Below, piece by piece: positions 3,156-56,954 of a stretch of 64,000 bases of DNA. The notes under the pieces were generated by a model. That model saw only the letters and a list, made by a program, of their open reading frames with translations. It had not been told where the DNA came from and made no database searches. The stretch spans positions 330,001 to 394,000 of the forward strand of contig CM068325.1 of NCBI GenBank assembly GCA_034766995.1. The letters run 5' to 3'. Positions within the stretch are counted from its first letter, which is position 1. Each line of letters starts with the position of its first letter. The translations under genes were made by a program, and so were the position numbers. The DNA is from Acanthacorydalis orientalis. Taxonomy: Eukaryota > Arthropoda > Insecta > Megaloptera > Corydalidae.

Positions 3156-6100
3156 ATGCCGTCCTCAACAAACAATCAAGTTTCCATCGTATCAGCCGAC
3201 GAACATAATGTCGATCCTTTCGAAAATAGTTATACTTCCTCAGGGGACAAGATATGCTCCCACGGCCGTGACTATCAGTATAAAGTCATCGTTTACCTCA
3301 TGTGTAAGCAACTGAATGCGAATTCTGAAAATTTTCGTCTGGCGTGTGAAATGGATGACGCTGGAAAATTCGACGACATTGTCTTACATTATGTGGAAAA
3401 TAACGAATGGAAATACAAATTATACCAACTTAAACACATATCCGGTAAGAATAAGAAAATAAATTCCAACAAGATATTCGAAAAAGAATCGAAAAACTCG
3501 AGATATTCTCTAAATATGTACTTTGATTCGTTTGAAAAGGAAATTAAAGCAAAAAATTTCGAAAACAAACACGAAGGTAAAATAGTCGAGGTCATTTTAA
3601 TGACAAATGTCGGATTAGATTTCAGTAATGACCTCCATAAAAATATATTCGAGAAGTGTAACGAAGAAATCGGGGTAGTTTACAAGTTCAAGAAAGGCCG
3701 CGAAGTACTCGTACACTTTTTAAAATACGAGCACTCTCTTCGCGGAAAAGTTTTGAACGAGAACGGCGACTTATCGGTCGATGCTGAAGATTTTTTTAGT
3801 AAATTACGGATCCGTGTTGATTTTTGCGACGAAGAGGCCGAACGAAAAACTAAAGACGAAATAAAAAAGTTTCTTCGGGTCGACGACGAAGAGTACGTCG
3901 ATAACGTATACAAGGATCTTTACAATAACATCGCTAGGTGGGTGTGCGATCCCCGAGGATATTTTGTCGGTAGACGAAAATGCATGGAATGGTTTACTGA
4001 AGCTAAAGAAAAAATAAAGAACCCGTCGGACGTCTTCAGTGAATTCCATTTGAATCGAATTAGAACGCACGATGTTCGATTCATCGAAGAAAGTTTACGG
4101 AAATTCAGGAATATTTTCGAGCAGAATGCACACGTTTGTCACGTGAAGACGCGTTGCAGCGTCGACTTTTCACTTGTGAAAGTGGCGCAGTGCTTGGAAG
4201 AAGGAACATTCCGCTTGATCGGCGACGATGAGTTTATCACTTACGATAAAAACAAACTTATAAACGATCTGCGATTAAATGAAATCCGTGTGTTGGTGAT
4301 CGCTTGTTTTTCGTGTAAAACACTCGACATTCCGTCTTGGGAACGTATAAAGTTCATAATCGTCGCGAAATCCATATCTCTAACTGTAAATAACGTGCAG
4401 TGCATCGACGATGAGTTTAAATTTATTGAACTCGTACCATCGAAGCAAGAAGAACTCTTAGAGAAAGAAATTCGGTTTCAGACACGTTGTAGGAAAGTGC
4501 AACAAGTGTTTCGCCCGGACATCCGTCACATCATCGGTAATGATTTTCTGTTTAAGCTCGTCACATCGGCCGATCCGGTCGAGATCGACTCGTCCGCGGA
4601 CAGGCTCAGATCGACGGACGCTTTTTATATCGACAGACGCGTGTCCTACGGAAACGAAATCGACATGGCTCGGTTCGGACTGAACGACAGGGACGACGTC
4701 TACGTCTTCAGCGGGATGACGGAGACGCAGTTAAGAGAACTCCGCGAGGAAAAATCCGTGCGGAGACGAGACGATTTCTCGAACAGAGGCGCGCGGCTCG
4801 ACGATTCGAAAAGGGACGAGCGCGAGAGCAACGGCGCCGGCGAAACCGACGGCGAGGCCGACGACGAGGCCGACGTGATATTCTTATTACCGGAACGGAA
4901 TCCGGAGGAACAATTCAAACGGTTCTGCGAATCGTACGCGGGGAAGAACGTCGTGTGGATCGAGCATTCCGAGACGAGATTCTATCTGAGGAAGGCGTCC
5001 CGATCGATCAGGCGCGTCAGGGATTTCGTACGTGAAGGAATCACGAACCGCTTCGACGACCGTCTGTTGACCGATCTGAACGACGATATAATCATCGTAT
5101 GCGCGGACCCCGGAATGGGGAAGAGCACGTTGCTGTCGAGACTCGCGTCGAAACTCATCGAGGACGAAGATCGTCACGCGTGGATATTGCACGTGAATCT
5201 GACGGATCACGTGAAAGACTTCGGAGATCGAAAGGCGTTCGACGTCGATTCCGCCACGGAATTCATCGCCGACAGCCGTCGCTTCGGCGCGTTCGAAAGG
5301 AGTCTCTTCGCGGAGTGGCCGGAAGTCACGATACTGTTCGACGCGTTCGACGAGATCGCCCCGGATCACAGGCGAGCCGTCGTCGAGCTCGTCACGAGTC
5401 TGAACCGAAAAGAGAGATTCAGAATGTTCCTCACGTCGCGACCGAACGAAAAAGAATATCTCGAGGACGTATTCAACCGTCTCTGCTATCGGCTCGATCC
5501 GTTCGATAAAGAAAACATGGCGTCGTTTCTCACGAACCGATGGAATCCGAGCGGCGACGTCGACCGAGATCGTTCGACGAGATTCATCGACGCGCTGATA
5601 GATTCGGTGAAATCGTCGACCGTCGACAGATCCGAACGACTCATGAACACTCCGCTCGAATGCAGGTTGATCGGCGACGTGTTCGAGAAGGAACATGAGG
5701 TTTTCGTCGAGGGACGCGACGATCCGCCGTTACCTAATCGCGTCGACGTGTTGGAACTCTTCGAAGAATTCGTGCTACTGAAATGGAAAATATACGTCGA
5801 AGAGAAAAAAAAGCAATACATTCATCCCGCTTCGCCGCTAGAAAGGAAACATCTCGAGGATAGTTTTATTCTGTTTAAAGAAAATCACAGACTGGCGAGT
5901 GTATATCTGCTGTTCGGAGATAAAATCGATTTGGACAATTTAAAAAGAAACGATTCCGAATGCATCCTAGATAAGAAAGAAAAACGCCAGCTGAAACGTT
6001 TCTTGGCCGAAATCGAAAGCGGCGACGAGAAGACCGGCGTGATTCAATCCGTACGCGACGGTATTCCCAAATACACGCATAGAATGTTCGCGGAGTATTT

Positions 6101-9100
6101 CGCTGCGGAGTTCTTTCACGAACTCGTCGAAGACGATCGAGAAAAATCGAGAGAGTTTCTCGCCGAAGCCATGTTTCATTCCGAAAGAAAAACATTTAAG
6201 CTTTTTTTCGACCGTCTTTCCATTAAAGATCAAACATCATCAAAAATATTCAAAATCTTATTGAACTGCGATGAAGATCGGTTCGATGATTCCATCGACA
6301 AGGAAGAAAGCAGTACGTTTGTCAGCTCGACCGACAAATTCGGCCGAAATGCACTTCACTTATGTGCCACGTATGAATTCAACAACATCTTTCAACAGTT
6401 GCTCCGACGCGAGTTCGACATGAATGCAAGAGACGACTTCTTCGGATACACGCCAGTGCAGTACGCATGCGTCGCACAGATGTGGAAGAATCTAGACTTG
6501 CTGTTGACGAAAAGCGACGAAAACATAACTGATTTCATTTCTGACAAAATTCAGTGCTTACTTCACGCATCGAAGAACGGATATAAGGAAATAGTCAGAA
6601 ACCTAATGGAGCACACGGAAGCAACTCACAGAGACGAATTGATCAACACGATAGACGAAGACAAAAAGACGCCGTTGTATTATGCAGCAATCTCCGGACA
6701 CGTGTCTCTGACAAAGTACCTAATGGCGGAAACTAATGTGAATTTAAGTCATAAATACGACTATGACGGGAACACCATTCTGCATTCACTAGCACGAATA
6801 TCCGAGGAACGAGACGGATCGGTGGAGATAGTGCGACTATTGGCAAACACGGATTTGGTCAATACTAGAAATATTGAAGGTCGGACTCCACTTCATTATG
6901 CAGCCAATTGCGCATCGAAATCTGTCTATGAGTGCCTGTTAAATGCAAACAAAGCAGATGTTTTCGTTACCGACAATTCCAAGCTAACAATTTTACACAT
7001 GCTGGTAGCAACACACGATGAACAGAAAATCGGAATTGTAAAAGAACTTAAATCTAGAGGCATTTCGATCGATGCTCGTGACGAATCCGGAAGAACGCCG
7101 CTTCATATCGCCTGCGAATTCGGTTCTCGCGCACTCTGCGAGTACCTGATCACAGAAATGCGAGCGGATATCGAGGCGGTCACTAACAGAAACTGGACAG
7201 CGTTACATTATCTGGCGAAGAACAAGAACGACGACGTGGTCGAAGTCGCACGTTCGCTGATCTCCAAAGGCGTCTCGATCGAAGCTCGTCACGACAACGG
7301 AAGTACGCCTCTTCTCGTCGCTTGCTCGTACGGCTCTCGCGCGCTCTGCGAGTACTTGATCATGGAGATGAAAGCGGACGTCAAGGCGGTCAACAACAGT
7401 AACTGTACTACTTTACACTCTCTGGCGGAGAACAAGATCGAAAACATGATCGAAGTCGCACGTCTGCTGGTTTCCGAAGGCGTTTCGATCGAAGCTCGTG
7501 ACGCAGACGGAAGGACGGCTCTCCATATCGCTTGCAGATTCGGATCTCGCGCGTTCTGCGAGTACCTGATCACAGAAATGCGAGCGGATATCGAGGCGGT
7601 CAATAACAGAAACTGGACAGCGTTACATTATCTGGCGCAGAACAAGAACGAAAACGTCGTCGAAGTCGCACGTTCGCTGATCTCCAAAGGCCTGTCGATC
7701 GAAGCTCGTCACGACTACGGAAGTACGCCTCTTCTCGTCGCTTGCTCGTACGGCTCTCGCGCGCTCTGCGAGTGCTTGATCACGGAAATGAAAGCGGACG
7801 TCAAGGCGGTCAATAACAAAAACTGGACTACCTTGCACTCTCTAGCGGAGAACACGAACGAAAACATGATCGAAGTCGCACGTCTGCTGATTTCCGAAGG
7901 CGTTTCGATCGAAGCTCGTGACGAAAACGGAAGAACGGTTCTCCATATCGCTTGCTCATTCGGATCTCGTGCGTTCTGCGAGTACCTGATCACGGAAATG
8001 CGAGCGGATATCGAGGTGGTCAATAACAGAAACTGGACAGCCTTACATTATCTGGCACAGAACAAGAACGACAACGTGGTCGAAGTCGCACGTTCGTTGA
8101 TCTCCAAAGGCCTGTCGATCGAAGCTCGTCACGACTACGGAAGTACGCCTCTTCTCGTCGCTTGCTCGTACGGCACTCGCGCATTCTGTGAGTACTTGAT
8201 CACGGAAATGAAAGCGGACGTTAAGGCGGTCAATAACAGTAACTGGACTACCTTACACTCTCTGGCAGAGAATAAGAACGAAAACATGGTCGAAATCGCA
8301 CGTACGCTGGTGTCCGAAGGCGTTTCGATCGAAGCTCGTGACGAAAACGGAAGAACGGCTCTCCACGTCGCTTGCTCGTCCGGCACTCGCGCGTTCTGCG
8401 AGTACTTGATCGCAGAAATGCGAGCGGATATCGAGGCGGTCAATAACAGAAACTGGACAGCGTTACATTATCTGGCGCAGAACAAGAACGAAAACATGGT
8501 CGAAGTCGCACGCTCGCTGATCTCCGAAGGCCTCTCGATCGAAGCTCGTCACGACTACGGAAGTACGCCTCTTCTCGTCGCTTGCTCGTACGGCTCTCGC
8601 GCGCTCTGCGAGTACTTGATCACGGAAATGAAAGCGGACGTTAAGGCGGTCAATAACAGTAACTGTACTACCTTACACTCTCTGGCGGAGAACAACAACG
8701 AAAACATGTTCGAAGTCGCACGTCTGCTGATCTCCGAAGGCGTTCCGATCGAAGCTCGTGACGAAAACGGAAGGACGGCTCTCCATTTTGCCTGTTTGTT
8801 CGGATCTCGTGCGTTCTGCGAGCGCTTGATCACGGAAATGCGAGCGGATATCGAGGCGGTCACTAACAGAAACTCGACTACCTTGCATTGTCTCGCGGAG
8901 AATAAAAACGATAACATGATCGGAGTCGCACGTTCGCTGATCTCCAAAGGCGTCTCGATCGAAGCTCGTCACGACAACGGAAGTACGCCTCTTCTCGTCG
9001 CTTGCTCGTACGGCTCTCGCGCGCTCTGCGAGTACTTGATCATGGAGATGAAAGCGGACGTCAAGGCGGTCAACAACAGTAACTGTACTACTTTACACTC

Positions 9101-11597
9101 TCTGGCGGAGAACAAGATCGAAAACATGATCGAAGTCGCACGTCTGCTGGTTTCCGAAGGCGTTTCGATCGAAGCTCGTGACGCAGACGGAAGGACGGCT
9201 CTCCATATCGCTTGCAGATTCGGATCTCGCGCGTTCTGCGAGTACCTGATCACAGAAATGCGAGCGGATATCGAGGCGGTCAATAACAGAAACTGGACAG
9301 CGTTACATTATCTGGCGCAGAACAAGAACGAAAACGTCGTCGAAGTCGCACGTTCGCTGATCTCCAAAGGCCTGTCGATCGAAGCTCGTCACGACTACGG
9401 AAGTACGCCTCTTCTCGTCGCTTGCTCGTACGGCTCTCGCGCGCTCTGCGAGTGCTTGATCACGGAAATGAAAGCGGACGTCAAGGCGGTCAATAACAAA
9501 AACTGGACTACCTTGCACTCTCTAGCGGAGAACACGAACGAAAACATGATCGAAGTCGCACGTCTGCTGATTTCCGAAGGCGTTTCGATCGAAGCTCGTG
9601 ACGAAAACGGAAGAACGGTTCTCCATATCGCTTGCTCATTCGGATCTCGTGCGTTCTGCGAGTACCTGATCACGGAAATGCGAGCGGATATCGAGGTGGT
9701 CAATAACAGAAACTGGACAGCCTTACATTATCTGGCACAGAACAAGAACGACAACGTGGTCGAAGTCGCACGTTCGTTGATCTCCAAAGGCCTGTCGATC
9801 GAAGCTCGTCACGACTACGGAAGTACGCCTCTTCTCGTCGCTTGCTCGTACGGCACTCGCGCATTCTGTGAGTACTTGATCACGGAAATGAAAGCGGACG
9901 TTAAGGCGGTCAATAACAGTAACTGGACTACCTTACACTCTCTGGCAGAGAATAAGAACGAAAACATGGTCGAAATCGCACGTACGCTGGTGTCCGAAGG
10001 CGTTTCGATCGAAGCTCGTGACGAAAACGGAAGAACGGCTCTCCACGTCGCTTGCTCGTCCGGCACTCGCGCGTTCTGCGAGTACTTGATCGCAGAAATG
10101 CGAGCGGATATCGAGGCGGTCAATAACAGAAACTGGACAGCGTTACATTATCTGGCGCAGAACAAGAACGAAAACATGGTCGAAGTCGCACGCTCGCTGA
10201 TCTCCGAAGGCCTCTCGATCGAAGCTCGTCACGACTACGGAAGTACGCCTCTTCTCGTCGCTTGCTCGTACGGCTCTCGCGCGCTCTGCGAGTACTTGAT
10301 CACGGAAATGAAAGCGGACGTTAAGGCGGTCAATAACAGTAACTGTACTACCTTACACTCTCTGGCGGAGAACAACAACGAAAACATGTTCGAAGTCGCA
10401 CGTCTGCTGATCTCCGAAGGCGTTCCGATCGAAGCTCGTGACGAAAACGGAAGGACGGCTCTCCATTTTGCCTGTTTGTTCGGATCTCGTGCGTTCTGCG
10501 AGCGCTTGATCACGGAAATGCGAGCGGATATCGAGGCGGTCACTAACAGAAACTCGACTACCTTGCATTGTCTCGCGGAGAATAAAAACGATAACATGAT
10601 CGGAGTCGCACGTTCGCTGGTTTCCGGAGACGTTTCGGTCGAAGCTCGTGACGAATACGGAAGGACGGCTCTTCATATCGCTTGCGCGTACGGATCTCGC
10701 GCGTTCTGCGAGCGCTTGATCACGGAAATGAAAGCCGATATCGAGGCGGTCGATAACAGAAACTGTACTACCTTGCATTATCTGGCACAGAATCAGAACG
10801 GAAACACGGTCGAACTCGCACGATCGCTGATTTCCGAAGGCGTTTCGATCGAAGCTCGCGACGAATACGGAAGGACGGCTCTCCATATCGCTTGCGCGTA
10901 CGGAACTCGCGCGTTCTGCGAGTATTTGATCGCAGAAATGAAAGCGGATGTTACGGCAGTCGGTAACGGAAACCGGACTGCCTTACATTATCTGGCACAG
11001 AATAAAAACGACAACACGGTCGAAGTCGCACGTTCGCTGGTTTCCGAAGGCGTTTCTATCGAAGCTCGCGACGAATACGGAAGGACGGCTCTCCATATCG
11101 CTTGCTCGTTCGGCTCTCGCGCGTTGTGTGAGTATTTGATCGCGGAAGTGAACGCGGATATCAAGGCGGTCAGTAACAGAAACCGGACGACCTTACACTC
11201 TCTGGCAGATAATGAGAACGAAAATATCATCGGAGTCGCACGTTCGCTGGTTTCCGGAGGCGTTTCGATCGAAGCTCGCGACGAAGACGGAAGGACGGCT
11301 CTCCATCTCGCTTGCTCGTCCGGAACTCGCGCGCTCTGCGAGTACTTGATCGTAGAAACGAGAGCGGACGTCAAGGCGGTCGATAACGGAAACTCGACCG
11401 CCTTACATTGCTTGGCGGAGAACAAGAATGAAAAAACGGCCGAAATCGCACGTCTGCTTGTTACGGAAGGCGTTTCGATCGATGCTCGTGATAAAAACGG
11501 AAAGACTCCTCTCGACATCGCGCGTGAGTTCGGTTCTAGCGCGTTCCGCGAGTTCGCGAGTACGGAAACGGAAGCGAATATCGAAGCGGTCGAGTAG
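3156..11597 (+). CDS. giant nuclease-NACHT-ankyrin protein (STAND/NLR-like)
   Basis: One uninterrupted exon of 2,813 codons; residue numbers below count from the longer in-frame ATG at 3069, so the chosen start is M30. Residues about 60-200 resemble a Cap4/DUF4297-type PD-(D/E)xK nuclease: G66-x2-Y69-Q70, then FDDI (D102, D103) and YQLKH (Q120, K122). Residues about 640-1040 form a NACHT STAND NTPase: Walker A ADPGMGKST (679-687), Walker B ILFDAFDEI (755-763), LTSRP (788-792) and the helical-domain signature HRMFAEYFAAEFF (1004-1016). Ankyrin repeats, about 50, fill 1085-2842; from about 1338 they form near-identical 70-residue pairs. Such architecture suggests a repeat sensor, an NTPase switch and a nuclease effector, as in bacterial Avs proteins; function here is inference. 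The N-terminal third of the exon is AT-rich, the NACHT and late ankyrin parts CpG-rich. The exon ends at TAG inside a repeat. No signal peptide or membrane segment is evident, so a cytosolic or nuclear protein is likely. Confidence 0.85.
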   Translation: MPSSTNNQVSIVSADEHNVDPFENSYTSSGDKICSHGRDYQYKVIVYLMCKQLNANSENFRLACEMDDAGKFDDIVLHYVENNEWKYKLYQLKHISGKNKKINSNKIFEKESKNSRYSLNMYFDSFEKEIKAKNFENKHEGKIVEVILMTNVGLDFSNDLHKNIFEKCNEEIGVVYKFKKGREVLVHFLKYEHSLRGKVLNENGDLSVDAEDFFSKLRIRVDFCDEEAERKTKDEIKKFLRVDDEEYVDNVYKDLYNNIARWVCDPRGYFVGRRKCMEWFTEAKEKIKNPSDVFSEFHLNRIRTHDVRFIEESLRKFRNIFEQNAHVCHVKTRCSVDFSLVKVAQCLEEGTFRLIGDDEFITYDKNKLINDLRLNEIRVLVIACFSCKTLDIPSWERIKFIIVAKSISLTVNNVQCIDDEFKFIELVPSKQEELLEKEIRFQTRCRKVQQVFRPDIRHIIGNDFLFKLVTSADPVEIDSSADRLRSTDAFYIDRRVSYGNEIDMARFGLNDRDDVYVFSGMTETQLRELREEKSVRRRDDFSNRGARLDDSKRDERESNGAGETDGEADDEADVIFLLPERNPEEQFKRFCESYAGKNVVWIEHSETRFYLRKASRSIRRVRDFVREGITNRFDDRLLTDLNDDIIIVCADPGMGKSTLLSRLASKLIEDEDRHAWILHVNLTDHVKDFGDRKAFDVDSATEFIADSRRFGAFERSLFAEWPEVTILFDAFDEIAPDHRRAVVELVTSLNRKERFRMFLTSRPNEKEYLEDVFNRLCYRLDPFDKENMASFLTNRWNPSGDVDRDRSTRFIDALIDSVKSSTVDRSERLMNTPLECRLIGDVFEKEHEVFVEGRDDPPLPNRVDVLELFEEFVLLKWKIYVEEKKKQYIHPASPLERKHLEDSFILFKENHRLASVYLLFGDKIDLDNLKRNDSECILDKKEKRQLKRFLAEIESGDEKTGVIQSVRDGIPKYTHRMFAEYFAAEFFHELVEDDREKSREFLAEAMFHSERKTFKLFFDRLSIKDQTSSKIFKILLNCDEDRFDDSIDKEESSTFVSSTDKFGRNALHLCATYEFNNIFQQLLRREFDMNARDDFFGYTPVQYACVAQMWKNLDLLLTKSDENITDFISDKIQCLLHASKNGYKEIVRNLMEHTEATHRDELINTIDEDKKTPLYYAAISGHVSLTKYLMAETNVNLSHKYDYDGNTILHSLARISEERDGSVEIVRLLANTDLVNTRNIEGRTPLHYAANCASKSVYECLLNANKADVFVTDNSKLTILHMLVATHDEQKIGIVKELKSRGISIDARDESGRTPLHIACEFGSRALCEYLITEMRADIEAVTNRNWTALHYLAKNKNDDVVEVARSLISKGVSIEARHDNGSTPLLVACSYGSRALCEYLIMEMKADVKAVNNSNCTTLHSLAENKIENMIEVARLLVSEGVSIEARDADGRTALHIACRFGSRAFCEYLITEMRADIEAVNNRNWTALHYLAQNKNENVVEVARSLISKGLSIEARHDYGSTPLLVACSYGSRALCECLITEMKADVKAVNNKNWTTLHSLAENTNENMIEVARLLISEGVSIEARDENGRTVLHIACSFGSRAFCEYLITEMRADIEVVNNRNWTALHYLAQNKNDNVVEVARSLISKGLSIEARHDYGSTPLLVACSYGTRAFCEYLITEMKADVKAVNNSNWTTLHSLAENKNENMVEIARTLVSEGVSIEARDENGRTALHVACSSGTRAFCEYLIAEMRADIEAVNNRNWTALHYLAQNKNENMVEVARSLISEGLSIEARHDYGSTPLLVACSYGSRALCEYLITEMKADVKAVNNSNCTTLHSLAENNNENMFEVARLLISEGVPIEARDENGRTALHFACLFGSRAFCERLITEMRADIEAVTNRNSTTLHCLAENKNDNMIGVARSLISKGVSIEARHDNGSTPLLVACSYGSRALCEYLIMEMKADVKAVNNSNCTTLHSLAENKIENMIEVARLLVSEGVSIEARDADGRTALHIACRFGSRAFCEYLITEMRADIEAVNNRNWTALHYLAQNKNENVVEVARSLISKGLSIEARHDYGSTPLLVACSYGSRALCECLITEMKADVKAVNNKNWTTLHSLAENTNENMIEVARLLISEGVSIEARDENGRTVLHIACSFGSRAFCEYLITEMRADIEVVNNRNWTALHYLAQNKNDNVVEVARSLISKGLSIEARHDYGSTPLLVACSYGTRAFCEYLITEMKADVKAVNNSNWTTLHSLAENKNENMVEIARTLVSEGVSIEARDENGRTALHVACSSGTRAFCEYLIAEMRADIEAVNNRNWTALHYLAQNKNENMVEVARSLISEGLSIEARHDYGSTPLLVACSYGSRALCEYLITEMKADVKAVNNSNCTTLHSLAENNNENMFEVARLLISEGVPIEARDENGRTALHFACLFGSRAFCERLITEMRADIEAVTNRNSTTLHCLAENKNDNMIGVARSLVSGDVSVEARDEYGRTALHIACAYGSRAFCERLITEMKADIEAVDNRNCTTLHYLAQNQNGNTVELARSLISEGVSIEARDEYGRTALHIACAYGTRAFCEYLIAEMKADVTAVGNGNRTALHYLAQNKNDNTVEVARSLVSEGVSIEARDEYGRTALHIACSFGSRALCEYLIAEVNADIKAVSNRNRTTLHSLADNENENIIGVARSLVSGGVSIEARDEDGRTALHLACSSGTRALCEYLIVETRADVKAVDNGNSTALHCLAENKNEKTAEIARLLVTEGVSIDARDKNGKTPLDIAREFGSSAFREFASTETEANIEAVE
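7060..11597 (+). repeat. homogenised ankyrin-coding tandem array, 210/420-bp modules
   Basis: The array steps in 210-bp units (two ankyrin repeats, 70 codons), about 21.5 copies. Over much of it two module types alternate, one with GRTALHIAC and one with GSTPLLVAC, giving a 420-bp super-period. Sequence between modules is far more alike at DNA level than ankyrin structure requires, pointing to unequal exchange or gene conversion. Upstream repeats (about 6340-7060) are divergent. Confidence 0.9.
7260..10619 (+). repeat. 1,680-bp tandem duplication inside the ankyrin array
   Basis: Copy A is 7260-8939 and copy B 8940-10619, each eight 210-bp modules. Reading the two copies line by line I found no difference; identity also runs about 16 bp upstream of the nominal join, so the breakpoint is only known within that interval. 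Either the duplication is very recent (or converted), or it is an assembly artefact. Confidence 0.85.
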
Positions 11598-11740
11598 AGA
11601 AACGAGCTTCGTTGCGTTATCCGGTACGACGAGGACGAAAGCGTGATCGAAATCACACGGTCGCCGGTTTCTAAAAGCGATTCGATCGAAACTCGTAACG
11701 AAGATGAAGACACGCCTCGAAGACGACGATGAAGAACGAA
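11598..11740 (+). pseudogene. decayed ankyrin module beyond the stop codon
   Basis: After the TAG at 11595-11597 the sequence still aligns with the 210-bp module: a GAGAAACGAGCTTCGTTGCG region where modules have the second helix, then GATCGAAATC, TCGCCGGTTTCT and TTCGATCGAAACTCG in the usual order. The stop occupies the place of an AAC codon in other modules. The protein was therefore probably longer once, and the remnant is now 3' untranslated sequence. Confidence 0.7.
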
Positions 11741-11802
11741 GATGAATACACGGGTTACGAGCCGAGTTAAGAAAACCCTAGTAGAAAGAAAAGTTCATAA
11801 AT

Positions 11803-11808: not shown

Positions 11809-12309
11809 CACACGGCGTTAACCTCGAAACTCGAAAACGTCCGAGGAAATAGAAAAACATCGAATTCCGCTTTACGACGGAACAAACGTCGACGACCGGA
11901 AGTTTCGTATCGAAACTTCACCAAACGAGTCGGACCAGCTCCGGTTCGTCGAAACCTCGTGTCGTGGAACGGCGACGTCGTTAGATACGGATACGTCGCC
12001 GGAGAGAAAGAGGAAAGAGCTACCGATCGCCGTAAATCGGAGACGCAGACGACTCGAAGGATCGCCGACGGTCACCCGGAAAGCGCCGACGATAGAGACA
12101 CGGCTTTCGACTCGCGGAAAGCTCCGTGCGGAACGTTCGAAAGAAAAGGACCGGCTCGTTTCGCGTAAGTCGTCGCTCGGTATGAAATATAATCGAAAAA
12201 CGAGTCGCTCGCCGGTCGTTTTCTAAAATTCGATAAATCGATTCGAGATTCGAAGTCGACCGGAGCGAGCTCACAAGAAGTCGACATAGTTCGTCGTCTT
12301 CGTCTCGCC
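11809..12309. other. CpG-rich intergenic DNA
   Basis: CpG-rich sequence with many short frames on both strands but no convincing gene. A GTAAGT donor-like hexamer occurs at about 12166. It could belong to a transcript with the doubtful ORF that follows. Confidence 0.4.
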
Positions 12310-13578
12310 GTGCCGTCCGAGTACGACGGCGCAGTCACGGCCGTCGAAACTTTCGCTCGGGATAAACCGAACGTCGGTTTCGTCGAGAATCGACTTCCGG
12401 ACGAAGAATCTAAGAAGAACGACACAAGAAAAACGAGCGAGGAAGAATCGCCTCCATCGACGGCATTCACGTCGCAACGGAGACGGAAGAAGTCGGACGC
12501 ACCGCAGCGAAACTCGAAGAATAGAGGAAACGACGAATCCGGATTCCAGTTTGAACGTGATTACTGTCGAAGAGTCGGACGCAGACCGGCAGAACGCCGA
12601 GGCGGAATTCGAGATGTCGGAAATAAAAATCCGCATAGCGCGAACGCGGTATCGGGTTCTAACGACGAGGCCGATTCGAATCGTTATCGTTTTTCGGCCA
12701 CGATCGAACGGCTTCTCGATTCCGGAGCGACAGAGCGTCCGATCGGCGGTCGCGATCGGCTCGGTAACGAAAAGGAACTCGAGGTTCCTGTACGAATCGA
12801 AGTCGCCAAGACCGGAGCACCGCTTCGAGACCGAAAAACAGGACAAGTTCGACTGACGAGCATCTTCGATGCTCGTTTCGCGCGTTTCAACTCTGATTCG
12901 AGTTGTTTCAGATGCGACGTCGGTAGAGAGTACGTTTGGAAACAGGTAAAGTGGAGCTTCGGAGACGAACGGATCCGGTTCGAATTCACCGTCCGGTATA
13001 CGCTCAGGCGGAACGGCGTCGCCGAAAAGACGAACGGACCCGTTTTAGAACGAGCCCGATGCACGTTACTCGACGGCGAGCTCGAAAAAACGTTTCGACC
13101 AGAAGCGGTCCTCGTGGCCGCGTATCCGATCGATCGAAGTCCCGCGTCGTCCTTGAATCGTAAAGTCCGAGCGGCTGTTCGGTTCGACGAAAAACCGAAC
13201 CTCGCAGGACCGAAAGTATTCGTGTGTGTCGCACGCTCACGACTTCCGAAAGAACCGATACCTGGAAAATTCGACTGTAGATTGTTCGTACGCTGTTTTA
13301 TAGGACACCGTCCGAGCCCTAACGATCGAAAAGTAATTTTCGGACGAGACTCGGTTTTCGAAGAAACGAAATTCACTATCGAGAACCTCGGCGGCGAACG
13401 ATCGGTAAATCGAGAGGAACCAGGAGAGATAAATGAAGAATACCGAACAGAAGAAGAGGACGAAAAAGAACGTGGACACGACGATAAAGAACGAGAAGAA
13501 ACGAAGAAGAGAAAGCCGAAGGGTCGACAAAGCAACCGTACACCGATACGTCTCGTAGATCGACGAGACGAACCATGA
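12310..13578 (+). CDS. doubtful 422-codon open frame, no recognised domain
   Basis: The frame is open from ATG 12310 to TGA. Its product is Arg-, Glu- and Lys-rich with a charged C-terminus (EEDEKERGHDDKEREETKKR). I recognise no family. A DSGAT string near residue 138 resembles an aspartic-protease active site but lacks the surrounding pattern. The opposite strand is open for 305 codons over much of the same DNA, as expected when CpG-rich sequence lacks stop codons by composition. A possible acceptor (GTTTCAG, about 12911) and donor (CAGGTAAAG, about 12945) could mean spliced use. Probably not a real protein; listed because of its length and its position just after the large gene. Confidence 0.2.
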   Translation: MPSEYDGAVTAVETFARDKPNVGFVENRLPDEESKKNDTRKTSEEESPPSTAFTSQRRRKKSDAPQRNSKNRGNDESGFQFERDYCRRVGRRPAERRGGIRDVGNKNPHSANAVSGSNDEADSNRYRFSATIERLLDSGATERPIGGRDRLGNEKELEVPVRIEVAKTGAPLRDRKTGQVRLTSIFDARFARFNSDSSCFRCDVGREYVWKQVKWSFGDERIRFEFTVRYTLRRNGVAEKTNGPVLERARCTLLDGELEKTFRPEAVLVAAYPIDRSPASSLNRKVRAAVRFDEKPNLAGPKVFVCVARSRLPKEPIPGKFDCRLFVRCFIGHRPSPNDRKVIFGRDSVFEETKFTIENLGGERSVNREEPGEINEEYRTEEEDEKERGHDDKEREETKKRKPKGRQSNRTPIRLVDRRDEP

Positions 13579-17539: not shown

Positions 17540-18085
17540 ACATAGTACAAACAATCTACGTTAAGATACAACCTCCTATCTATATATTCACGGTCATCCG
17601 AGAGGACGTAGGAATTTTTTCGACATAGTTCAAACAATCTATGTTAAGATACAATCCCTTATCTATATTAATGGTCATCCGTAGGTACCTTTTGAACATA
17701 GTTCAAACAATCTTCGTTAAGATACAACCGTGTATATACATTCACGGTCATCCGAGAGGACGTAGGAGTTTTTTCAACATAGTTCAGACACTCTACGTTA
17801 AGAAACAACCCCTTATCTATATTCATGGTCATCCGAGAGGACGTAGGAATTTTTTCAACCTAGTTCAGACACTCTACGTTAAGAAACAACCCCTTGTCTA
17901 TATTCATGGTCATCCGAGAGGACGTAGGAATTTTTTCAACATAGTTCAGACACTCTACGTTAAGAAACATCCCTGTATCTATATTCAGGGTCATCCGAGT
18001 GGACGTAGGAATTTTTTCAACCTAGTTCAGACACTCTACGTTAAAACACAACCCCTTGTCTATATTCACGGTCATCCGAGAGGAC
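17540..18085. repeat. 81-bp minisatellite, left array (about 6-7 units)
   Basis: Units share CGGTCATCCGAGAGGACGTA, GTTCA(A/G)ACA and CTACGTTAAGA. The spacing is 81 bp (for example 17775 to 17856), a multiple of three, so frames stay open through the array; in one plus-strand frame each unit reads like VQTLYVKKQPLIYIHGHP. This open frame is a by-product of period and composition until expression is shown. The mirrored right array (42965-43950) has about 12 units. Confidence 0.85.
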
Positions 18086-18595
18086 GTACGTGCGATCCGA
18101 TGTCGATTCCTGGATCTCCTCGTCGTTCGACCTCGCCGCCAAGATCTCTTCGTCGTCCAAGCTCGCCGCCGCCGGGATCCACGCGCTGTCCGAATAGGTC
18201 GCTCCTGTCGGTTCATCTCGCGGTACGGCGTTCCGGGAGACGCGTTCGCTCACGGCCTCGTCCGACGTTGCTCCGCTCCCGTCGCGGTCGACGACGGTGT
18301 AGACCGTCGGACGCTACGCTCGACGTCTGTGACCGCCGATCGTCGCACACTACCGTATCGTCGTAATACGCTATCGACACTATCACGTAAAGCCCCGTGC
18401 ACACGACCGGCGATTTGTTTGCGCACCACTATCGTACGGCCGGACGCCGCCGATTTTATTATCGAAATTATAACGGAGAGCGAAACGAGCGGTTCATCCG
18501 AGTTCGATGGAGAAATAACAAGCGTCTGTACCGTGAGAGCTCATGATCGAATTCGTAAGAAAAAAATCCGGGTTCGTGAGCTAAATTTATAAAGG
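18086..18595 (+). pseudogene. unrecognised gene fragment (left copy)
   Basis: CpG-rich sequence with a plus-strand frame ending ESETSGSSEFDGEITSVC then RIRKKKIRVREL and a TAA at about 18590. The acidic-then-basic composition looks protein-like but fits no family I recognise. The mirror copy at 41404-41658 (minus) keeps the same reading. Compared with the right arm, about 815 bp are missing here, with the join near 18345. Confidence 0.3.
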
Positions 18596-24468: not shown

Positions 24469-26046
24469 TTACTCGATGACCATCTTGTGCAATCCAAGAC
24501 TCTCGCGCAATCTTAAAAACGAGTTTTTCGATAATGCCTTGGTAAAGATGTCCGCACGCTGATGCTCTGTAGATACATACTTCAAAGCGATTTCTTGATC
24601 TTCTACTTTTTCTCTGACAAAATGATACTTTATATCGATGTGTTTTGACCTCTGGTGGAACTGAGGATTCCTTGCCAGACGAATAGCGCTCTGATTATCG
24701 ACATGAAGTACGGTGCTTGATTTACAATGACGACCGATGTCACTTAACAAATTTCGCAACCATACAGCTTCTTTTGCCGCACTAGCAGCAGCTACATATT
24801 CCGATTCGGTGGTACTTAATGACACCGATTTTTGACGCTGTGACGACCAAGTCACTGCTCCGTTTGCCAGAGTGAATACATAGCCAGTCGTAGACCTTCG
24901 CGTCGCCAAATAACTCGCATAATCTGCGTCCGAATATCCCAATAAATTGGATTCCGTACCAAATTTTTGATATTCAATTCCTACATCGATATTATTTACC
25001 AGATACGCAAATATTCTTTTTACTGCTAGCCAATGACCCATATTATGGCGATTTAAGAACCTGCTTACAGAATTGACAGCGTATGCAATATCAGGCCGTG
25101 ACACAATTGCTAGGAACATTAAAGACCCGACCGCCTCTCGATACGGTACATTTGTGATTTCCTCATCATCTGACTCAACGGGACTTAACACAGTGTGAGG
25201 ATCTGCGGGAACTGACACACCTTTCGCATCTTTCATGCCATATTTTTCGACTATTTGTTTCGCATACGCTTGTTGATGGATGAACATTGTCTTCTTCATT
25301 CTGTCGCGACAGATTTGTAACCCAACGAAGGTAGTACAATCGCTCAGGGTGATCTCGAACGTTTCGCGCAGCGACGTGACGATTGACTCGAGAACTTCTG
25401 TCGACCTCGCTGCAATAATCCCGTCATCAACAAAAAGCGCCAAATAGATTTCGCATCCATTGTAATATCCGAAAAATATGCATTTATCCGCGTCGGTCTC
25501 CTTGAGTTTATATTTGTGCAGGAAACTGGAGAACTTCAAGTTCCAACACCTTGGTGCTTGCTTTAACCCGTACAGGGATTTATTAAGTTTGCACACCACG
25601 TTACCGCAATCGCTGACGACGAGGCCCTCAGGAGCTTCCATGTGGATATCCTCCTGAAGATCTCCATAGAGGAACGCCGTGCGAACGTCGAACTGCACAG
25701 CTTCGAGGTCGTCGTGAGTGATGATCGCCAGGAGCACTCGAAGTGAGTCGTATCGTACTACGGGTGCAAATGTCTCCGTGTAATCGATGCCTTCGCGCTG
25801 CAAGAAACCTCGCGCACATAGGCGAGCTTTGAAGCGATACACCTTTCCTTTTTCGTCTCGCAGCAATTTGAAGACCCATTTCGAATCGATCGTCTTCTTC
25901 TTCGCGTCTCTTGGTACAATCGACCACGTTTTGTTTGTTTGATGTGCTTCGAGCTCAGATTCGATTGCTTTGATCCACCTCGGAGCGTCTGGTCCTACTA
26001 CTGCTTCCTGGAACGTGGAAGGAACTTTATATTCGACCAAATTCAA
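24469..26046 (-). CDS. copia reverse transcriptase-RNase H
   Basis: 525 codons from the first Met after the TAG; the frame is the same as Gag-integrase, so this is the rest of a normal single copia polyprotein. Features: SKWVFKLLRDEKG, FAPVVRYDSLR, QFDVRTAFLYGDL (first catalytic Asp), ALFVDDGII (VDD box, about residue 204) and HVDNQSAIRLA in RNase H (about 448). No shifts or further stops. Translation would need read-through of the TAG or an independent start; both are unproven. Confidence 0.9.
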   Translation of the reverse strand: MNLVEYKVPSTFQEAVVGPDAPRWIKAIESELEAHQTNKTWSIVPRDAKKKTIDSKWVFKLLRDEKGKVYRFKARLCARGFLQREGIDYTETFAPVVRYDSLRVLLAIITHDDLEAVQFDVRTAFLYGDLQEDIHMEAPEGLVVSDCGNVVCKLNKSLYGLKQAPRCWNLKFSSFLHKYKLKETDADKCIFFGYYNGCEIYLALFVDDGIIAARSTEVLESIVTSLRETFEITLSDCTTFVGLQICRDRMKKTMFIHQQAYAKQIVEKYGMKDAKGVSVPADPHTVLSPVESDDEEITNVPYREAVGSLMFLAIVSRPDIAYAVNSVSRFLNRHNMGHWLAVKRIFAYLVNNIDVGIEYQKFGTESNLLGYSDADYASYLATRRSTTGYVFTLANGAVTWSSQRQKSVSLSTTESEYVAAASAAKEAVWLRNLLSDIGRHCKSSTVLHVDNQSAIRLARNPQFHQRSKHIDIKYHFVREKVEDQEIALKYVSTEHQRADIFTKALSKNSFLRLRESLGLHKMVIE

Positions 26047-26262
26047 TTCATACCTTGAAGGCCGCTGAAGAGAGCCCCGATCTCGTAGGACTCGTGGTTC
26101 GATTCTCGACTGCTGGTCTTCCTCGACGACAGGAACATTATTGATTTCCGCTGCTGCTTCTACAACCTCGTTGTCACCTCGTGTTTCGTCTGCTTCCTCC
26201 TCAGTCTCCAGATGCGACGGTAATAGGATTTCTGCTTCCGTTGTTACTCTCCCCTCTCGATC

Positions 26263-28563
26263 CTACCTACCCACTCGCTCATCGAAAACTACATCTCTGG
26301 AAACAGAAATAGCGCCTGTTTCACGATTGTACAGCCTGTAGTTTGACGAGTCGCCCTGGTAGCCGACGAGAATCATCTTCTTCGACCTCGCATCGAATTT
26401 CTTGAGGAACTGCTTGGGTGTGTGGGCGTAGGCCACCGAACCGAAGATCCTCATGTGACCAACATCCGGCTTTTTACCCCTCCATAGCTCATATGGTGTG
26501 TTGCTTCCGCCCGGGCTCGACCGTCCTGCTCGATTCAAGGTGTAAACCGCTGTGTTCACGGCTTCCGCCCAAAGATTTATAGGCAAGTTCTTCGCCTGCA
26601 GCATTGTTCTGGCACATTCTATAATCGTTCGAATGTCGCGTTCCGATCTTCCATTCTGTGCGGGGGTGTATGGAGCCGTGTTCTCCAACTTTATGCCCCG
26701 TGACGCCAGGTATTCTCGCATCTTGTTACTGCAATACTCACCACCATTGTCAGCGCGGAGAGTTGTCATTGTCTGATCAAATTTGTTGACGAGCATGCGA
26801 TCGTATTCCATGAATCGATCGAAAACATCTGCTTTGTGCTTTAGGAAAAACACATGACGAAAAGCTGTAGCATGGTCTTTGAAGATCACGAAATACTCTG
26901 CACCGCCAAGAGATCGCGTTTGCATAGGCCCGCACACATCGCTGTGGACAAATTCTCCAGGTTTTCTACTTACGTTCACAGTTAGTTTGTTAAATGGTAA
27001 TTTGTGTAGTTTTCTTAGCTGGCACGCTTCACAAAAAAACTCTGTAGTATCCTTCACGGTCACTCCACCTATGAGTCCTTTTCTCGCTAGCTCGCACAGC
27101 GATCGTTGATTGATGTGCCCAAGTCGCTCATGCCACACTTTGATACTAGTCTCTGAAACATTTACTTCATTACGCGGACGCGAAACACGGAAAAACATTC
27201 GAAAGATTTGATTTGACTGTCTCGCGCCAATGGCTAAGACTTGCCCGTCTCGTTCGACTTTTACACTGGTACCCTCGAACTTCACGTCGTAGTCTTTAAC
27301 AGTGCAAACCCCGACTGAAAACAAATTCTTTCGGACACCTGGCACATAGAATACGTTTTCGATCACGCCATCGACCCATATACCGTTCACAAGTTTTTCG
27401 ATCTTAATTGTTCCGACACCTTCAATCGCGCACTCACCGTTGTCACCTAGAGAGACAGTCTCACCGTGCACTTGACGAAACTCGACGAACCAGTCTTTCC
27501 GAAAAGTTATGTGAGTAGATGCGCCACTGTCAGTAAGCCAGACGTCGCTTGTCTTGACGCGCATCAAACGATCTACTTCTTCGATTGTCGGTTCACTATA
27601 TCGACTCACCTCTCGAAACTTTTTGTCTTTCGCGGATGTCGTTACAACGAACGCGCATGCGCCACCGCCTTGACCTAGAACACTTTTACCTTTGTCTTTC
27701 GTCGGACAGGTAGCTGCGTAATGGCCTTTGGCTTGACACCGATAGCACACTATACTCTTCTTCGGGCGTCGTTTCCCTTTATCACTACTGTATTTGTCCC
27801 TGCCATCTGTTTTCGGCGCATTTTGCTTCGTCACAAAAAACGCACTTGTGGCTTCCTTATCCGCGCTCAGCCTGGATTCTTCACGAATTAGCCTCTCAGA
27901 CAAATTTTCAACTGTTTGTCTCGCGGGGTCAACGCTTTCCCAAGCCGTGGTGAAGGAGCGATACTTCGTCGTTAGACTAGCTAAAATCTTTGCCATGACT
28001 GTTAGATCTGAGATATGCTCACCTAGATCTGTGAGTTGTCGCGCCATATTCTGCACCTTCGACACGTGCTGAACAACTGAGTCTGTCGGGTCCATGCGAT
28101 ACTCGTGAAATCGCTGCGTAAGTGTGAGCTTATTCGACTCCGATTTTTGTTCGTGAATTTGACTGAGTTTGTCCCAAATGGCTTTTGCAGTGACACAGAC
28201 GAGTATCGTCTCGATTTCTTTACTCTCCATCGCCGATGAGATGATCGCCATGGCTTTCGCGTTATCTCGAATCCATGTTTTTGTCCGGGCCTCGTTCCCA
28301 CCTTCTCGGTTCGCTGGCTTGACACGCGATCCATCCACGATGTCGTATAAATCATTCGCCATAAGGACGGCGGTGATTTGAAACTTCCACGCCTGAAAAT
28401 TTGACCCGTCGAACCTCCTTATTTGTCTCACCGAAAAATCTTCCGCCATTTTCGCGTAATTTACTATGCTTCTTCGCAAAAAAAAATGCGTACGCGAACA
28501 CGATTCTGCTCGTAAAAATATGGCGACCACACCGATGCACAGAGATTTTTGCGCCGTTTTCAC
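26263..28563 (-). CDS. copia Gag-protease-integrase
   Basis: 766 codons. A Gag region is followed by a CCHC knuckle CYRCQAKGHYAATC (about residue 273), protease active site WLTDSGASTH (about 345), the GAG-pre-integrase zinc motif WHERLGH...CEACQ (about 478-510) and the integrase core: HSDVCGPM (about 539), RADNGGEY (about 605) and GRSERD (about 640). The frame ends at TAG 26263-26265, and the same frame reopens immediately into the reverse transcriptase. The first 38 codons are variable; an internal Met (MAEDFSVRQIRRFDG) may be the usual start. Single-copy age and open frame suggest very recent activity. Confidence 0.9.
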   Translation of the reverse strand: MKTAQKSLCIGVVAIFLRAESCSRTHFFLRRSIVNYAKMAEDFSVRQIRRFDGSNFQAWKFQITAVLMANDLYDIVDGSRVKPANREGGNEARTKTWIRDNAKAMAIISSAMESKEIETILVCVTAKAIWDKLSQIHEQKSESNKLTLTQRFHEYRMDPTDSVVQHVSKVQNMARQLTDLGEHISDLTVMAKILASLTTKYRSFTTAWESVDPARQTVENLSERLIREESRLSADKEATSAFFVTKQNAPKTDGRDKYSSDKGKRRPKKSIVCYRCQAKGHYAATCPTKDKGKSVLGQGGGACAFVVTTSAKDKKFREVSRYSEPTIEEVDRLMRVKTSDVWLTDSGASTHITFRKDWFVEFRQVHGETVSLGDNGECAIEGVGTIKIEKLVNGIWVDGVIENVFYVPGVRKNLFSVGVCTVKDYDVKFEGTSVKVERDGQVLAIGARQSNQIFRMFFRVSRPRNEVNVSETSIKVWHERLGHINQRSLCELARKGLIGGVTVKDTTEFFCEACQLRKLHKLPFNKLTVNVSRKPGEFVHSDVCGPMQTRSLGGAEYFVIFKDHATAFRHVFFLKHKADVFDRFMEYDRMLVNKFDQTMTTLRADNGGEYCSNKMREYLASRGIKLENTAPYTPAQNGRSERDIRTIIECARTMLQAKNLPINLWAEAVNTAVYTLNRAGRSSPGGSNTPYELWRGKKPDVGHMRIFGSVAYAHTPKQFLKKFDARSKKMILVGYQGDSSNYRLYNRETGAISVSRDVVFDERVGR

Positions 28564-28604
28564 GCTTTCACTATTTTTACAAAAAAATTACGCAGTCAGG
28601 GTGC

Positions 28605-36405: not shown

Positions 36406-37327
36406 CGAGGTCAGACAATTAAGTAATGCGACAAAATTCAAAAATCGAGTATATTTAAAAATTAAGGTACATCGCTGCGATCCCCTTCAAAGTAGTCCCC
36501 TCCCGCATCTATACACTTATTCCAGCGAGTTTTCCAGTTTTCGTAACAATTCTGGAACACTTCTTGTGGGACCTCTCCGAGTACCCTCGTCACAGATTCT
36601 TGGATATCTTCAACGGAGTCAAAATGTCGACCTTTGACGAATTTTTTCATATGGGGGAATAGGAAAAAGTCGCACGGTGACATGTCCGGTGAATAGGGCG
36701 GTTGTGGTAACGATGCGATGCCTTTAGACGCCAAAAACTGAGAGACACTGAACGCACTGTGACAGGGAGCATTGTCGTGATGCAGAACCCAAGTCTTCGC
36801 GATCTCTGGACGCACTCTGAGCACCCTTTTTCGTAATTTTTCGAGCACATTGCGGTAGAATACTTGATTTACGGTTTGTCCAGGTGGTACGAACTCTTTG
36901 TGAACCACCCCTTTGCTGTCGAAGAAGCAAATCAACATGGTTTTCACTTTGGACTTGCTCATTCTCGCCTTCTTTGGCCTTGGTGCTCCAGGGGACAGCC
37001 ACTGTTGGCTTTGTCGTTTAGTTTCGGGGTCATATTGAAAGAACCAACTTTCATCACCAGTAATAACTCGATCGAGAAGAGTAGGATCACTTTCAACCTG
37101 CTCGAGACAATCTTGAGCGATGTTCATTCGGTGACATTCGTGACATGCACTACTCGCGCGTTGTTACAAAACACTAAACAGCTGGCGAAGAAATGATCGT
37201 ACGAGGGTGGTCAGGGTCTCAATCGAGAGAGTAGGGATCTGCTATTACGGTGGCGGAGTTACAGGTTCGCAGTGTTACCACAGGCCGAGAAAAAAAATCG
37301 GTCGCTTTACTTAATTGTCTGACCTCG
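36406..37327 (-). mobile_element. mariner deletion derivative, copy 1 (922 bp)
   Basis: Terminal inverted repeats CGAGGTCAGACAATTAAGTA at each end, flanked by TA. It is shorter than a full mariner (about 1.3 kb) because the N-terminal helix-turn-helix part of the transposase is deleted. The same deletion is seen in copy 2 (46521-47450), so an already deleted form was mobilised by transposase made elsewhere. Confidence 0.9.
36462..37127 (-). CDS. mariner transposase, catalytic part only
   Basis: 221 codons. The D,D34D triad is intact: [10 protein letters not shown] (D25), LHHDNAPCH (about D117), and [11 protein letters not shown] with exactly 34 residues between the second and third Asp. The DNA-binding half is missing; the frame begins at [10 protein letters not shown] just after the deletion joint. 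A protein of this kind could not bind the ends normally. The otherwise clean frame suggests the deletion is recent. Confidence 0.8.
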
Positions 37328-42964: not shown

Positions 42965-43950
42965 AAATTCATAGTAAGAACGATGGTAGATCGGTCGGCC
43001 GAATCGATGCATTTAAATCGAGTATCTTAACGAAGGTTGTTTGAAATATGTTGAAAAAGTTCCTACGTCCTCTCGGGAGACCGTGAATATAGATAAGGGG
43101 TTGTATTATAAAGTAGTATGTTTGAACTATGTCGAAAAAGTTCCTACGTCCTCTCGAATGACCGTGAATATAGATAAGGGGTTGTTTCTTAACGTAGAGT
43201 GTTTGATCTATGTTGAAAAAATTCCAATGTCTTCTCGGATGGCCGTGAATATAGGTAAGCGGTTGTATCTTAATGTAGATTGATTGAAATATTTTGAAAA
43301 AATTCCTACATCCTCTCAAATGACCGTGAATGTAGATACGGCGTTGTATCTTAACGTACGGTGACTGAACTATGTCGAAAAAATTCCTACGTCCTCTCGG
43401 GTGACCGTGAATGTAGATAAGGCGTTGTTTTTTAACGTAGAGTGTTTGAACTATGATAGAAAAAATTCCTACGTCCTCTCGGATGACCGTGAATGTATAT
43501 ACACGGTTGTATCTTAACGAAGATTGTTTGAACTATGTTAAAAAGGTTCCTACGTCCTCTCGAATGACTGTGAATATAGATAAGGGGTTGTTTCTTAACG
43601 TAGATTGTTTGATCTATGTCAAAAAATTCGTACGTCCTCTCGGATGACCGTGAATATAGGTACGGAGTTGTATCTCAATGTAGAGTGTCTGAACTATGTC
43701 GAAAAAATTCCTACATCCTTTCGAATGACCGTGAATATAGATAGAGGGTTGTTTCTTAACATAGTATTTGATCTATTTCGAGAAAATTCCTACGTCCTCT
43801 CGGATGACCGTGAATATAGATACAGGGATATTTCTTAACGTAGAGTGTCTGAACTAGGTTGAAAAAATTCCTACGTCCTCTCGGATGACCGTGAATATAG
43901 ATAGGAGGTCGTAGCTTAACGTAGATTGTTTGTACTATGTCGAGCGAGGA
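42965..43950. repeat. 81-bp minisatellite, right array (about 12 units)
   Basis: Units on this strand share CCTACGTCCTCTCGGATGAC and CGTGAATATAGATA. Same repeat as 17540-18085, inverted, with nearly twice as many units. Some units carry small length changes that break the open frame. Confidence 0.85.
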
Positions 43951-46520: not shown

Positions 46521-47450
46521 CGAGGTAAGACAATTAAGTAATGCGACCGATTTTTTTCTCGGCCTGTGGTAACACTGCGAACCTGTAACTCCGCCACCGT
46601 AATAGCAGATCCCTACTCTCTCGATTGAGACCTTGACCACCCTCGTACGATCATTTCTTCGCCAGCTGTTTAGTGTTTTGTAACAACGCGCGAGTAGTGC
46701 ATGTCACGAAAATGGAACAGATTTCGCTCAAGAGATCGCTCAAGATTGTCTCGAGCAGGTTGAAAGTGATCCCACTCTTCTCGATCGAGTTATTACTGGT
46801 AATGAAACTTGGTTCTTTCAATATGACCCCGAAACTAAACGACAAAGCCAACAGTGGCTGTCCCCTGGAGCACCAAGGCCAAAGAAGGCGAGAATGAGCA
46901 AGTCCAAAGTGAAAACCATGTTGATTTGCTTCTTCGACAGCAAAGGGGTGGTTCACAAAGAGTTCGTACCACCTGGACGAACCATAAATCAAGTATTCTA
47001 CCGCAATGTGCTCGAAAAATTACGAAAAAGGGTGCTCAGAGTGCGTCCAGAGATCGCGAAGACTTGGGTTCTGCATCACGACAATGCTCCCTGTCACAGT
47101 GCGTTCAGTGTCTCTCAGTTTTTGGCGTCTAAAGGCATCGCAACGTTACCACAACCGCCCTATTCACCGGACATGTCAACCTGCGACTTTTTCCTATTCC
47201 CCCATATGAAAAAAATCGTCAAAGGTCGACATTTTGACTCCGTTGAAGATATCCAAGAATCTGTAACGAGGGTACTCGGAGAGGTCCCACAAGAAGTGTT
47301 CCAGAATTGTTACGAAAACTGGAAAACTCGCTGGAATAAGTGTATAGATGCGGGAGGGGACTACTTTGAAGGGGATTGCAGCGATGTACCTTAATTTTTA
47401 AATATACTCGATTTTTGAATTTTGTCGCATTACTTAATTGTCTGACCTCG
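46521..47450 (+). mobile_element. mariner deletion derivative, copy 2 (930 bp)
   Basis: CGAGGTAAGACAATTAAGTA at one end and the inverse of CGAGGTCAGACAATTAAGTA at the other, with TA on both sides. It has the same N-terminal deletion as copy 1 but lies in the opposite orientation and differs by point changes. Confidence 0.9.
46774..47394 (+). pseudogene. mariner transposase catalytic part, copy 2, damaged
   Basis: The frame reads [14 protein letters not shown], so the first catalytic Asp of the GDE box is replaced by Asn. HHDNAPCH and YSPDMSTCDFF follow with normal spacing. The frame upstream of 46774 differs from copy 1 at the deletion joint. The replaced Asp makes it catalytically dead. Confidence 0.8.
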
Positions 47451-54120: not shown

Positions 54121-54362
54121 CGCTTCAAACGAACCTTATCTCGTCGTCTTTTGGTCTGAGTATTCTTTTTATCGCTTTCGGATCCAGATGTTTCCATCGT
54201 GGATGCGGAAAGCGATAGACCAGATTTGTGGCTCTCAGAGGAGCCTTCTCTTTTTTTATCTGGATCACTTGCAGCCAGATTGGGGGTAAGATGGAGAGTT
54301 TTGGGAGTCTTTAGGACTGACTCCCTCGGTTTTTCAATTTTTTCTTCTGAAGTTTTTACTGT

Positions 54363-56344: not shown

Positions 56345-56954
56345 TCTCCAGAGAACGTGGAAGAGCGCCAATTGTCGCTTCAAGTATCACATCCTTCCGC
56401 GTCTGGCAAGAGGACATCGAATCCGCAACTTGTCAGACGCGGATGCGCGTGTTCTTCTGAGGAGGTACGAGTCGTGCGGATGTCGGCCGGAGATACGGTG
56501 TTTGCGATGCCGACGAGGAAAATTTATCGAAGTGCCGTTTTTGCAGGTACATGGACTCATCCCCGCCGCCGCCGCAGCAGCCGCCAGGCGGCGAGCAGCA
56601 GCCGGCACCACCACCAGCACCGGTGCGGCGCCCGGGATAGAGGTGTTCAGACGCTTCTTCCCGGACGTCGTGCCAGAGGATACCGTCGAGATCCTCGCGC
56701 CGGAGACCCCCGGCGGCGACAGGACCGGAGATCCCGGCGAGATCTCGGAGGCGGCGATCCCGGTCTCGACGTCGGCCCGCGAGGGGATGGCGGTGCCATC
56801 GAGCCGTGATGTCCTGGTGGCCGCGACCGGACGCCTCATCCGGGAGAGCGTGCCGAACAAAAGAACGGACGGAACAGAAATCCTAGATGCGGAAAATTCA
56901 GACGACGGGATCCAAGGTGTCTGTGAGAAATCTTCTGCACAGACGCGACCATAA
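56345..56954 (+). pseudogene. repeated gene cassette, copy 1
   Basis: Starts in sequence like the end of a Myb-like exon (LSDADARVLLRRY), continues FAMPTRKIYRSAVFAGTWTH in another frame, then a CAG splice-like site and a CCGCCGCAG-rich stretch. One frame (56430-56954) is open throughout and reads IEVFRRFFPDVVPEDTVEIL and MAVPSSRDVLVAATGRLIRE before running into the 122-bp unit (TEILDAENSDDGIQ). No family recognised. Good codon-like texture in the second half suggests a former exon. Confidence 0.4.

Follow-up and report, generated by a model that had tools for sequence, protein, structure and literature searches.

Bacterial Avs proteins are composed of an N-terminal effector, a STAND NTPase and a C-terminal repeat sensor. 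A related architecture is present in the bacterial proteins bNACHT25 and bNACHT32 in which a PD-(D/E)XK DNase stands before the NACHT, DNA is degraded on MS2 infection, and a change of the active-site Asp, a residue needed for defence, abolishes the degradation (PMC12169576). In animals, a NACHT-ankyrin family common to arthropods and to the Wolbachia phage WO was described in 2016, and the NACHT of phage WO was already placed within arthropod diversity in that work (PMC5062602). Various arthropods are said to be without bona fide NLRs, which the source defines by C-terminal leucine-rich repeats (PMC7308585). Here we describe a gene of Acanthacorydalis orientalis located in a stretch of 64,000 nucleotides (hereafter the window, C13:330001-394000 of a 548-Mb assembly with 27 contigs), whose product carries a predicted nuclease of the Cap4 type ahead of an NLR-like NACHT and a long ankyrin array. 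It belongs to a family with at least 75 genes in this genome. With a probability of about 0.6, we propose that these genes, which carry ankyrin repeats in the copies read, encode immune sensors that work inside the cell and would cut DNA when triggered.

The window protein presents the three parts of the Avs plan, namely a nuclease effector, a NACHT and an ankyrin array. An initial annotation, made from the sequence alone, had proposed this Avs-like plan, and that part of it was supported; it also raised the possibility that the gene was acquired from a bacterium or an endosymbiont, and a recent acquisition of this kind is not supported, as discussed below. With bNACHT25 and bNACHT32 the protein shares the N-terminal PD-(D/E)XK nuclease and the central NACHT, but those proteins are bacterial and carry a C-terminal NCH1 domain in place of the long ankyrin array (PMC12169576). 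The nuclease fold and profiles are shared with CBASS Cap4 and Lamassu LmuA, and the FDD motif aligns with Cap4; however, a SAVED domain follows the nuclease in Cap4, where the window protein has NACHT and ankyrin, so that it is not itself a CBASS Cap4. The repeats of Avs3 (PDB 8dgc) are presumably tetratricopeptide repeats instead of ankyrin, and the NACHT of the window protein matches animal NLRs more closely. The NACHT module and the helices after it are common to NOD2, NLRP3 and NLRC4, but animal NLRs carry leucine-rich repeats and a CARD, PYD or Death domain where the window protein carries ankyrin and a nuclease; with ankyrin at its C-terminus, it is not a bona fide animal NLR.

The protein belongs to the arthropod and phage WO NACHT-ankyrin family, as judged from its relatives in Blattella, Diploptera, Diorhabda, Daphnia, Culex and Wolbachia and not from the sequences of PMC5062602 themselves. 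As described for that family, the NACHT is followed by ankyrin, homologues are present in insects and crustaceans, and there is a Wolbachia relative (PMC5062602). The word "nuclease" is absent from that text, whereas here an N-terminal nuclease was found in 22 of 29 proteins and at 75 of the 76 NACHT places of the genome; the large expansion near chromosome ends is another difference from the family as presented there. In the open-licence full-text literature, judged by titles and abstract openings, we recognised no report of the nuclease of this family or of such an expansion.

The nuclease domain was detected with two PADLOC profiles, SAVED_PDDEXK (2.3e-5, covering only profile positions 10-126 of 483) and an endonuclease effector profile (2.5e-4), and its structure model matched LmuA, HerA-DUF4297, Cap4, Hachiman HamA and Avs3. 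The comparison of the N-terminal domain with PD-(D/E)xK folds, which had been recommended in the initial annotation, was in this way carried out and gave a fold match. The motifs pointed out there are present (GRDYQ, residues 37-41; GKFDDI, 70-75; YQLKH, 90-94), and its D103 and K122 are D74 and K93 when counted from the ATG at 3156, the former numbering fitting the ATG at 3069. From the model, the protein is predicted to be a member of the Cap4 branch of the PD-(D/E)xK superfamily, with a core bearing the D and (E/Q)xK motifs. Residues E65, D74, Q91 and K93 are identical in 75/75 nuclease domains of the genome, F72 and D73 are each kept in 74/75, and F72, D73, D74, Q91 and K93 are invariant in alignment A3 (14 sequences). 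The possibility of a dead nuclease was rejected, since E..D..QxK is complete in all the copies. As fold and motif constitute the evidence and structure is silent on the substrate, the same plan could also hold an effector other than a DNase, either an RNA-cutting enzyme or a signalling or DNA-binding scaffold. We consider this alternative distinctly unlikely, in view of the complete active site and of the DNA that is bound in several of the most similar solved structures, such as LmuA-DNA and DUF4297-HerA-DNA.

The Cap4_nuclease profile of Pfam (PF14130) misses the nuclease family here. It gave no match at E 1 among seven family members, was absent from the best 25 of 29 Pfam families listed for the window protein, and had no match in the whole genome; control genomes also gave none, which points to the reach of the profile and not to the absence of the domain.

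The search of the genome with the NACHT profile showed 76 places, a count to be read as at least 76, and none of them has a stop inside the match. The nuclease is found just upstream of the NACHT in 75 of these places (19/20 in the first set, 55/55 in the second, plus the window), the count covering nuclease domains that adjoin NACHT-profile matches. Under identity thresholds that we chose, the nuclease sequences were grouped in types A (18, including the window), B (15), C (28) and other (14). Types A and C share a mean identity of 29%, and their active site is still invariant. The only NACHT place without a nuclease, L010 (G000:C6:7164210-7174110, open reading frame 3571-5562 on the plus strand), has a different architecture. 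It is the best NACHT match of the genome (4.7e-20), its tail is leucine-rich by eye, only NACHT and nSTAND3 were found in it with Pfam, and it is perhaps a classical NLR-like gene.

The window copy was compared over residues 1-1000 with 14 paralogues by the Nei-Gojobori method. These were drawn from loci L011-L029, all 19 of which carry the nuclease, by leaving out L014, L015, L019 and L023 (too divergent) and L025 (broken). The mean non-synonymous (dN) and synonymous (dS) distances were 0.19 and 0.69, with a dN/dS of 0.28 (nuclease 0.30, linker 0.31, NACHT 0.25). The window copy is under purifying selection. Among the 14 paralogues themselves, the dN/dS as a ratio of means was 0.68, and some copies are damaged or short: L025 is split between nuclease and NACHT, L083 has two stops in the nuclease, and three of the 75 frames are under 900 codons. 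The damaged copies and the ratio of 0.68 among young copies are what a decaying repeat family without present function would present, its open frames being recent copies not yet broken. This explanation seems to us the least probable of all, as 72/75 frames have 900 codons or more (that of L025 being counted from after its split), the ratio is 0.28 on the older split, and the active site is invariant between types as distant as A and C.

The NACHT profile PF05729 exceeded its cut-off (7.3e-7, 29.6 bits against 26.7), and the Walker A and B motifs announced in the initial annotation are located inside the match (GMGKST, residues 653-658; FDAFDE, 728-733). In the structural comparison, the NACHT part together with the following helices matches animal NLRs best, namely NOD2 and NLRP3, and also NLRC4. 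In the HRMFAEYFAAEFF segment after the NACHT, H975, E980 and Y981 are invariant in alignments A1 and A3.

The earlier estimate of about 50 ankyrin repeats was right: each of the 21 tandem units contains approximately two repeats, and about seven more precede them, as counted by eye. When the array was compared with itself, 1560 bp were identical at an offset of 1680 bp; therefore, the array grew recently or was doubled in the assembly. The array was likely longer at one time, the sequence past the stop codon, in which all three frames are broken, being what is left of it. All seven copies that were read (the window, L012, L014, L015, L019, L023 and the type C copy L085) have ankyrin tails, and it is on these that the statement that the proteins end in ankyrin is based. 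Some short frames, namely five of type C with 903-907 codons and one with 447, may stop short of an array. Between L012 and L016, the downstream flanks align with a shift of 4 units of 210 bp, and between L012 and L020 with a shift of 14. Furthermore, near-identical type A copies (98.6%) have frames of 1185 to 2847 codons, measured from stop to stop and thus not necessarily equal to array lengths; this spread would fit changes in the array, and early stops could add to it. Since the arrays differ by whole units and the effector is conserved, the sensor changes in length while the effector stays fixed.

Regarding the genomic location, 47 of the 75 copies are on contig C13, which with 9.5 Mb represents 1.7% of the genome and is the smallest among the long contigs whose lengths were examined. 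They occupy 0.08-3.13 and 5.55-9.44 Mb, with none listed in between. Leaving out four copies on small contigs, 45 of 71 are within 2 Mb of a contig end, against 9.6% expected; without C13 the proportion is 14 of 24 against 8.8%, the copies not being independent in either count. Exact (TTAGG)6 was not found in the genome by a DNA search that skips simple repeats, hence uninformative on the telomere type. The upstream DNA of close paralogues is common to them over at least about 1 kb, and in many of them so is the downstream DNA, which indicates segmental duplication and does not support an origin as retrocopies. Inside the window itself, no paralogues of the nuclease, linker or NACHT were found beyond chance.

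The accumulation of so many copies on one small contig, many of them near-identical, and the retrotransposons and pieces of mariner that surround the window copy could also correspond to a selfish DNA-cutting NLR-like family, which would spread near chromosome ends and bias transmission or kill the cells without it. We regard this as unlikely. Contig C13, with its 1.7% of the genome, also bears ordinary kinase genes at three places (4 of the 145 matches listed, or 2.8%), by which its interpretation as a gene-free extra (B) chromosome was rejected; moreover, the related bacterial architecture works in phage defence, and homologues are present in distant arthropods.

Three protein searches gave 28 relatives, that is, 29 proteins with that of the window. 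The nuclease was found in 22 of them with a profile built from 7 of these same 29 proteins, and FDD..QxK by a simple pattern in 17. Those positive by the profile include proteins of Blattella germanica, Diploptera punctata, Diorhabda carinulata, Daphnia sinensis, Culex and the Wolbachia of Phasia obesa; the Blattella protein misses the simple pattern, yet it retains those residues in alignment A3. The Wolbachia protein P0002, which was the best match of the first search, shares nuclease, linker and NACHT with the window protein at 26% identity. Unlike the window protein, it has about 800 extra residues before the nuclease (1-800), with ankyrin-like repeats by eye. A second Wolbachia protein among the 29, P0017, was without nuclease by the profile. 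Among the matches listed for GTDB genome contigs there was one weak NACHT match, in a cyanobacterium, and in phages and viral contigs no match was found.

In an unrooted NACHT tree of 38 rows (all 29 proteins and nine loci of this genome), the window copy grouped with its close paralogues (100/100), and the other copies of the genome branched deep among arthropod and Wolbachia rows, with many forks unresolved. The two Wolbachia proteins were scattered singletons. In the nuclease tree, also unrooted (42 rows: 21 retrieved domains and 21 hand-chosen of the 75 own domains), the Wolbachia row grouped with unnamed environmental proteins and not with the window. The resemblance of P0002 could suggest the recent capture of a gene from Wolbachia or another symbiont, followed by amplification in the host, in line with the acquisition mentioned in the initial annotation. 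We find this very unlikely: arthropods, and this genome itself, hold diverse members of the family, the copies here constitute several lineages that branch deep next to proteins of cockroaches, a beetle, Daphnia and Culex, and long branches part the window lineage from Wolbachia, even with many forks unresolved. The database searches and the placement of the phage WO NACHT inside arthropod diversity argue in the same direction, and a recent bacterial origin is not supported by the protein, GTDB, phage and viral searches or by the two trees.

In the reading of these genes as DNA-cutting immune sensors, the architecture, the copy number, the lack of variation in the predicted active site, the clustering near chromosome ends and the purifying selection that acts on the window copy are observed, and the folds of nuclease and NACHT are predicted. 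By analogy with the bNACHT proteins, the ankyrin array would bind a ligand of a pathogen or symbiont, and the NACHT module would then take up ATP and oligomerise, gathering the nuclease domains so that DNA may be cleaved. The DNA cut could belong to an invader in the cytosol, or to the cell itself, which would then be killed. Duplication near chromosome ends and changes in array length would keep the repertoire changing.

The features of the gene are collected in Table 1. The frame is open from 3054 to the stop codon at 11595-11597, with an upstream in-frame ATG at 3069, and the chance of such a frame at this base composition is about 10^-63. The T-rich stretch ending in GCAG before the start codon is kept in 14 paralogues and in the broken copy L025, and it is not conserved in the divergent copies L014, L015, L019 and L023. 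This acceptor-like site is consistent with the host 5' exon that had been postulated, but the exon itself was not found directly.

Table 1. Coordinates of the gene and its parts in the window
Feature	Position	Strand	Basis
Nuclease, linker, NACHT, helical region and ankyrin array	3156..11597	+	Single open reading frame, 2813 codons (amino acids) from ATG 3156
Polypyrimidine/AG splice-acceptor-like site just 5' of the start codon	3131..3145	+	Sequence; 14 paralogues and L025
Predicted Cap4-type PD-(D/E)xK nuclease domain, residues ~31-288	3246..4019	+	Profiles and structure-model matches
Predicted active site: E65 (3348-3350), D74 (3375-3377), Q91-x-K93 (3426-3434)	3348..3434	+	Conservation
Conserved linker region, residues 331-600	4146..4955	+	Aligns with Wolbachia and other relatives; mean dN/dS 0.31 against 14 paralogues
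NACHT STAND NTPase, residues 646-792	5091..5531	+	PF05729
HRMFAEYFAAEFF segment after the NACHT, helical region, residues 975-987	6078..6116	+	Conservation
Ankyrin repeats, ~50	6543..11594	+	Pfam Ank families; residue ~1130 to C-terminus
21 head-to-tail 210-bp (70-aa) ankyrin units	7059..11468	+	Tandem-repeat analysis
Ankyrin-like sequence, out of frame past the stop	11600..11790	+	blastn with L012 continues to 11717; likeness to unit by eye

About 600 bp downstream of the gene, on the same strand, there is an open frame of 461 codons (12193-13575, plus strand) with no Pfam family over the cut-off, which may be a gene or a C-terminal part that was lost. In a Copia-type retrotransposon (24475-28587, minus strand), two neighbouring frames hold gag, integrase and reverse transcriptase domains, and a non-LTR retrotransposon (50422-55373, minus strand) presents endonuclease, reverse transcriptase and RNase H domains, with zinc-knuckle-like motifs seen by eye in the frame upstream of it. 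Two fragments of a mariner-type transposase (36468-37163, minus strand, on which Pfam was run, and 46684-47391, plus strand) point in opposite directions and look almost the same by eye. One and the same 81-bp tandem repeat is found at 17540-18088 and 43022-43943, by eye in inverse orientation, and a 122-bp satellite array (55929-60770) is followed by a AAATAAAC-rich low-complexity array (61172-63227).

We give about even chances to a broader proposal, namely that arthropods hold an NLR arm of their own, combining an Avs-style Cap4 nuclease, an animal NACHT and ankyrin, expanded here into banks of genes near chromosome ends, at least 75 in number, in which the arrays grow and shrink while the cutting domain stays fixed. 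If this is true, a large NACHT family that includes its own DNA-cutting effector would provide arthropods with an intracellular sensor system, which would work like Avs and bNACHT of bacteria and is invisible here to the Cap4 profile of Pfam. It would also suggest what the NACHT-ankyrin genes of phage WO copy or counter. The family allows a clear test of whether an animal receptor defends by cutting DNA.
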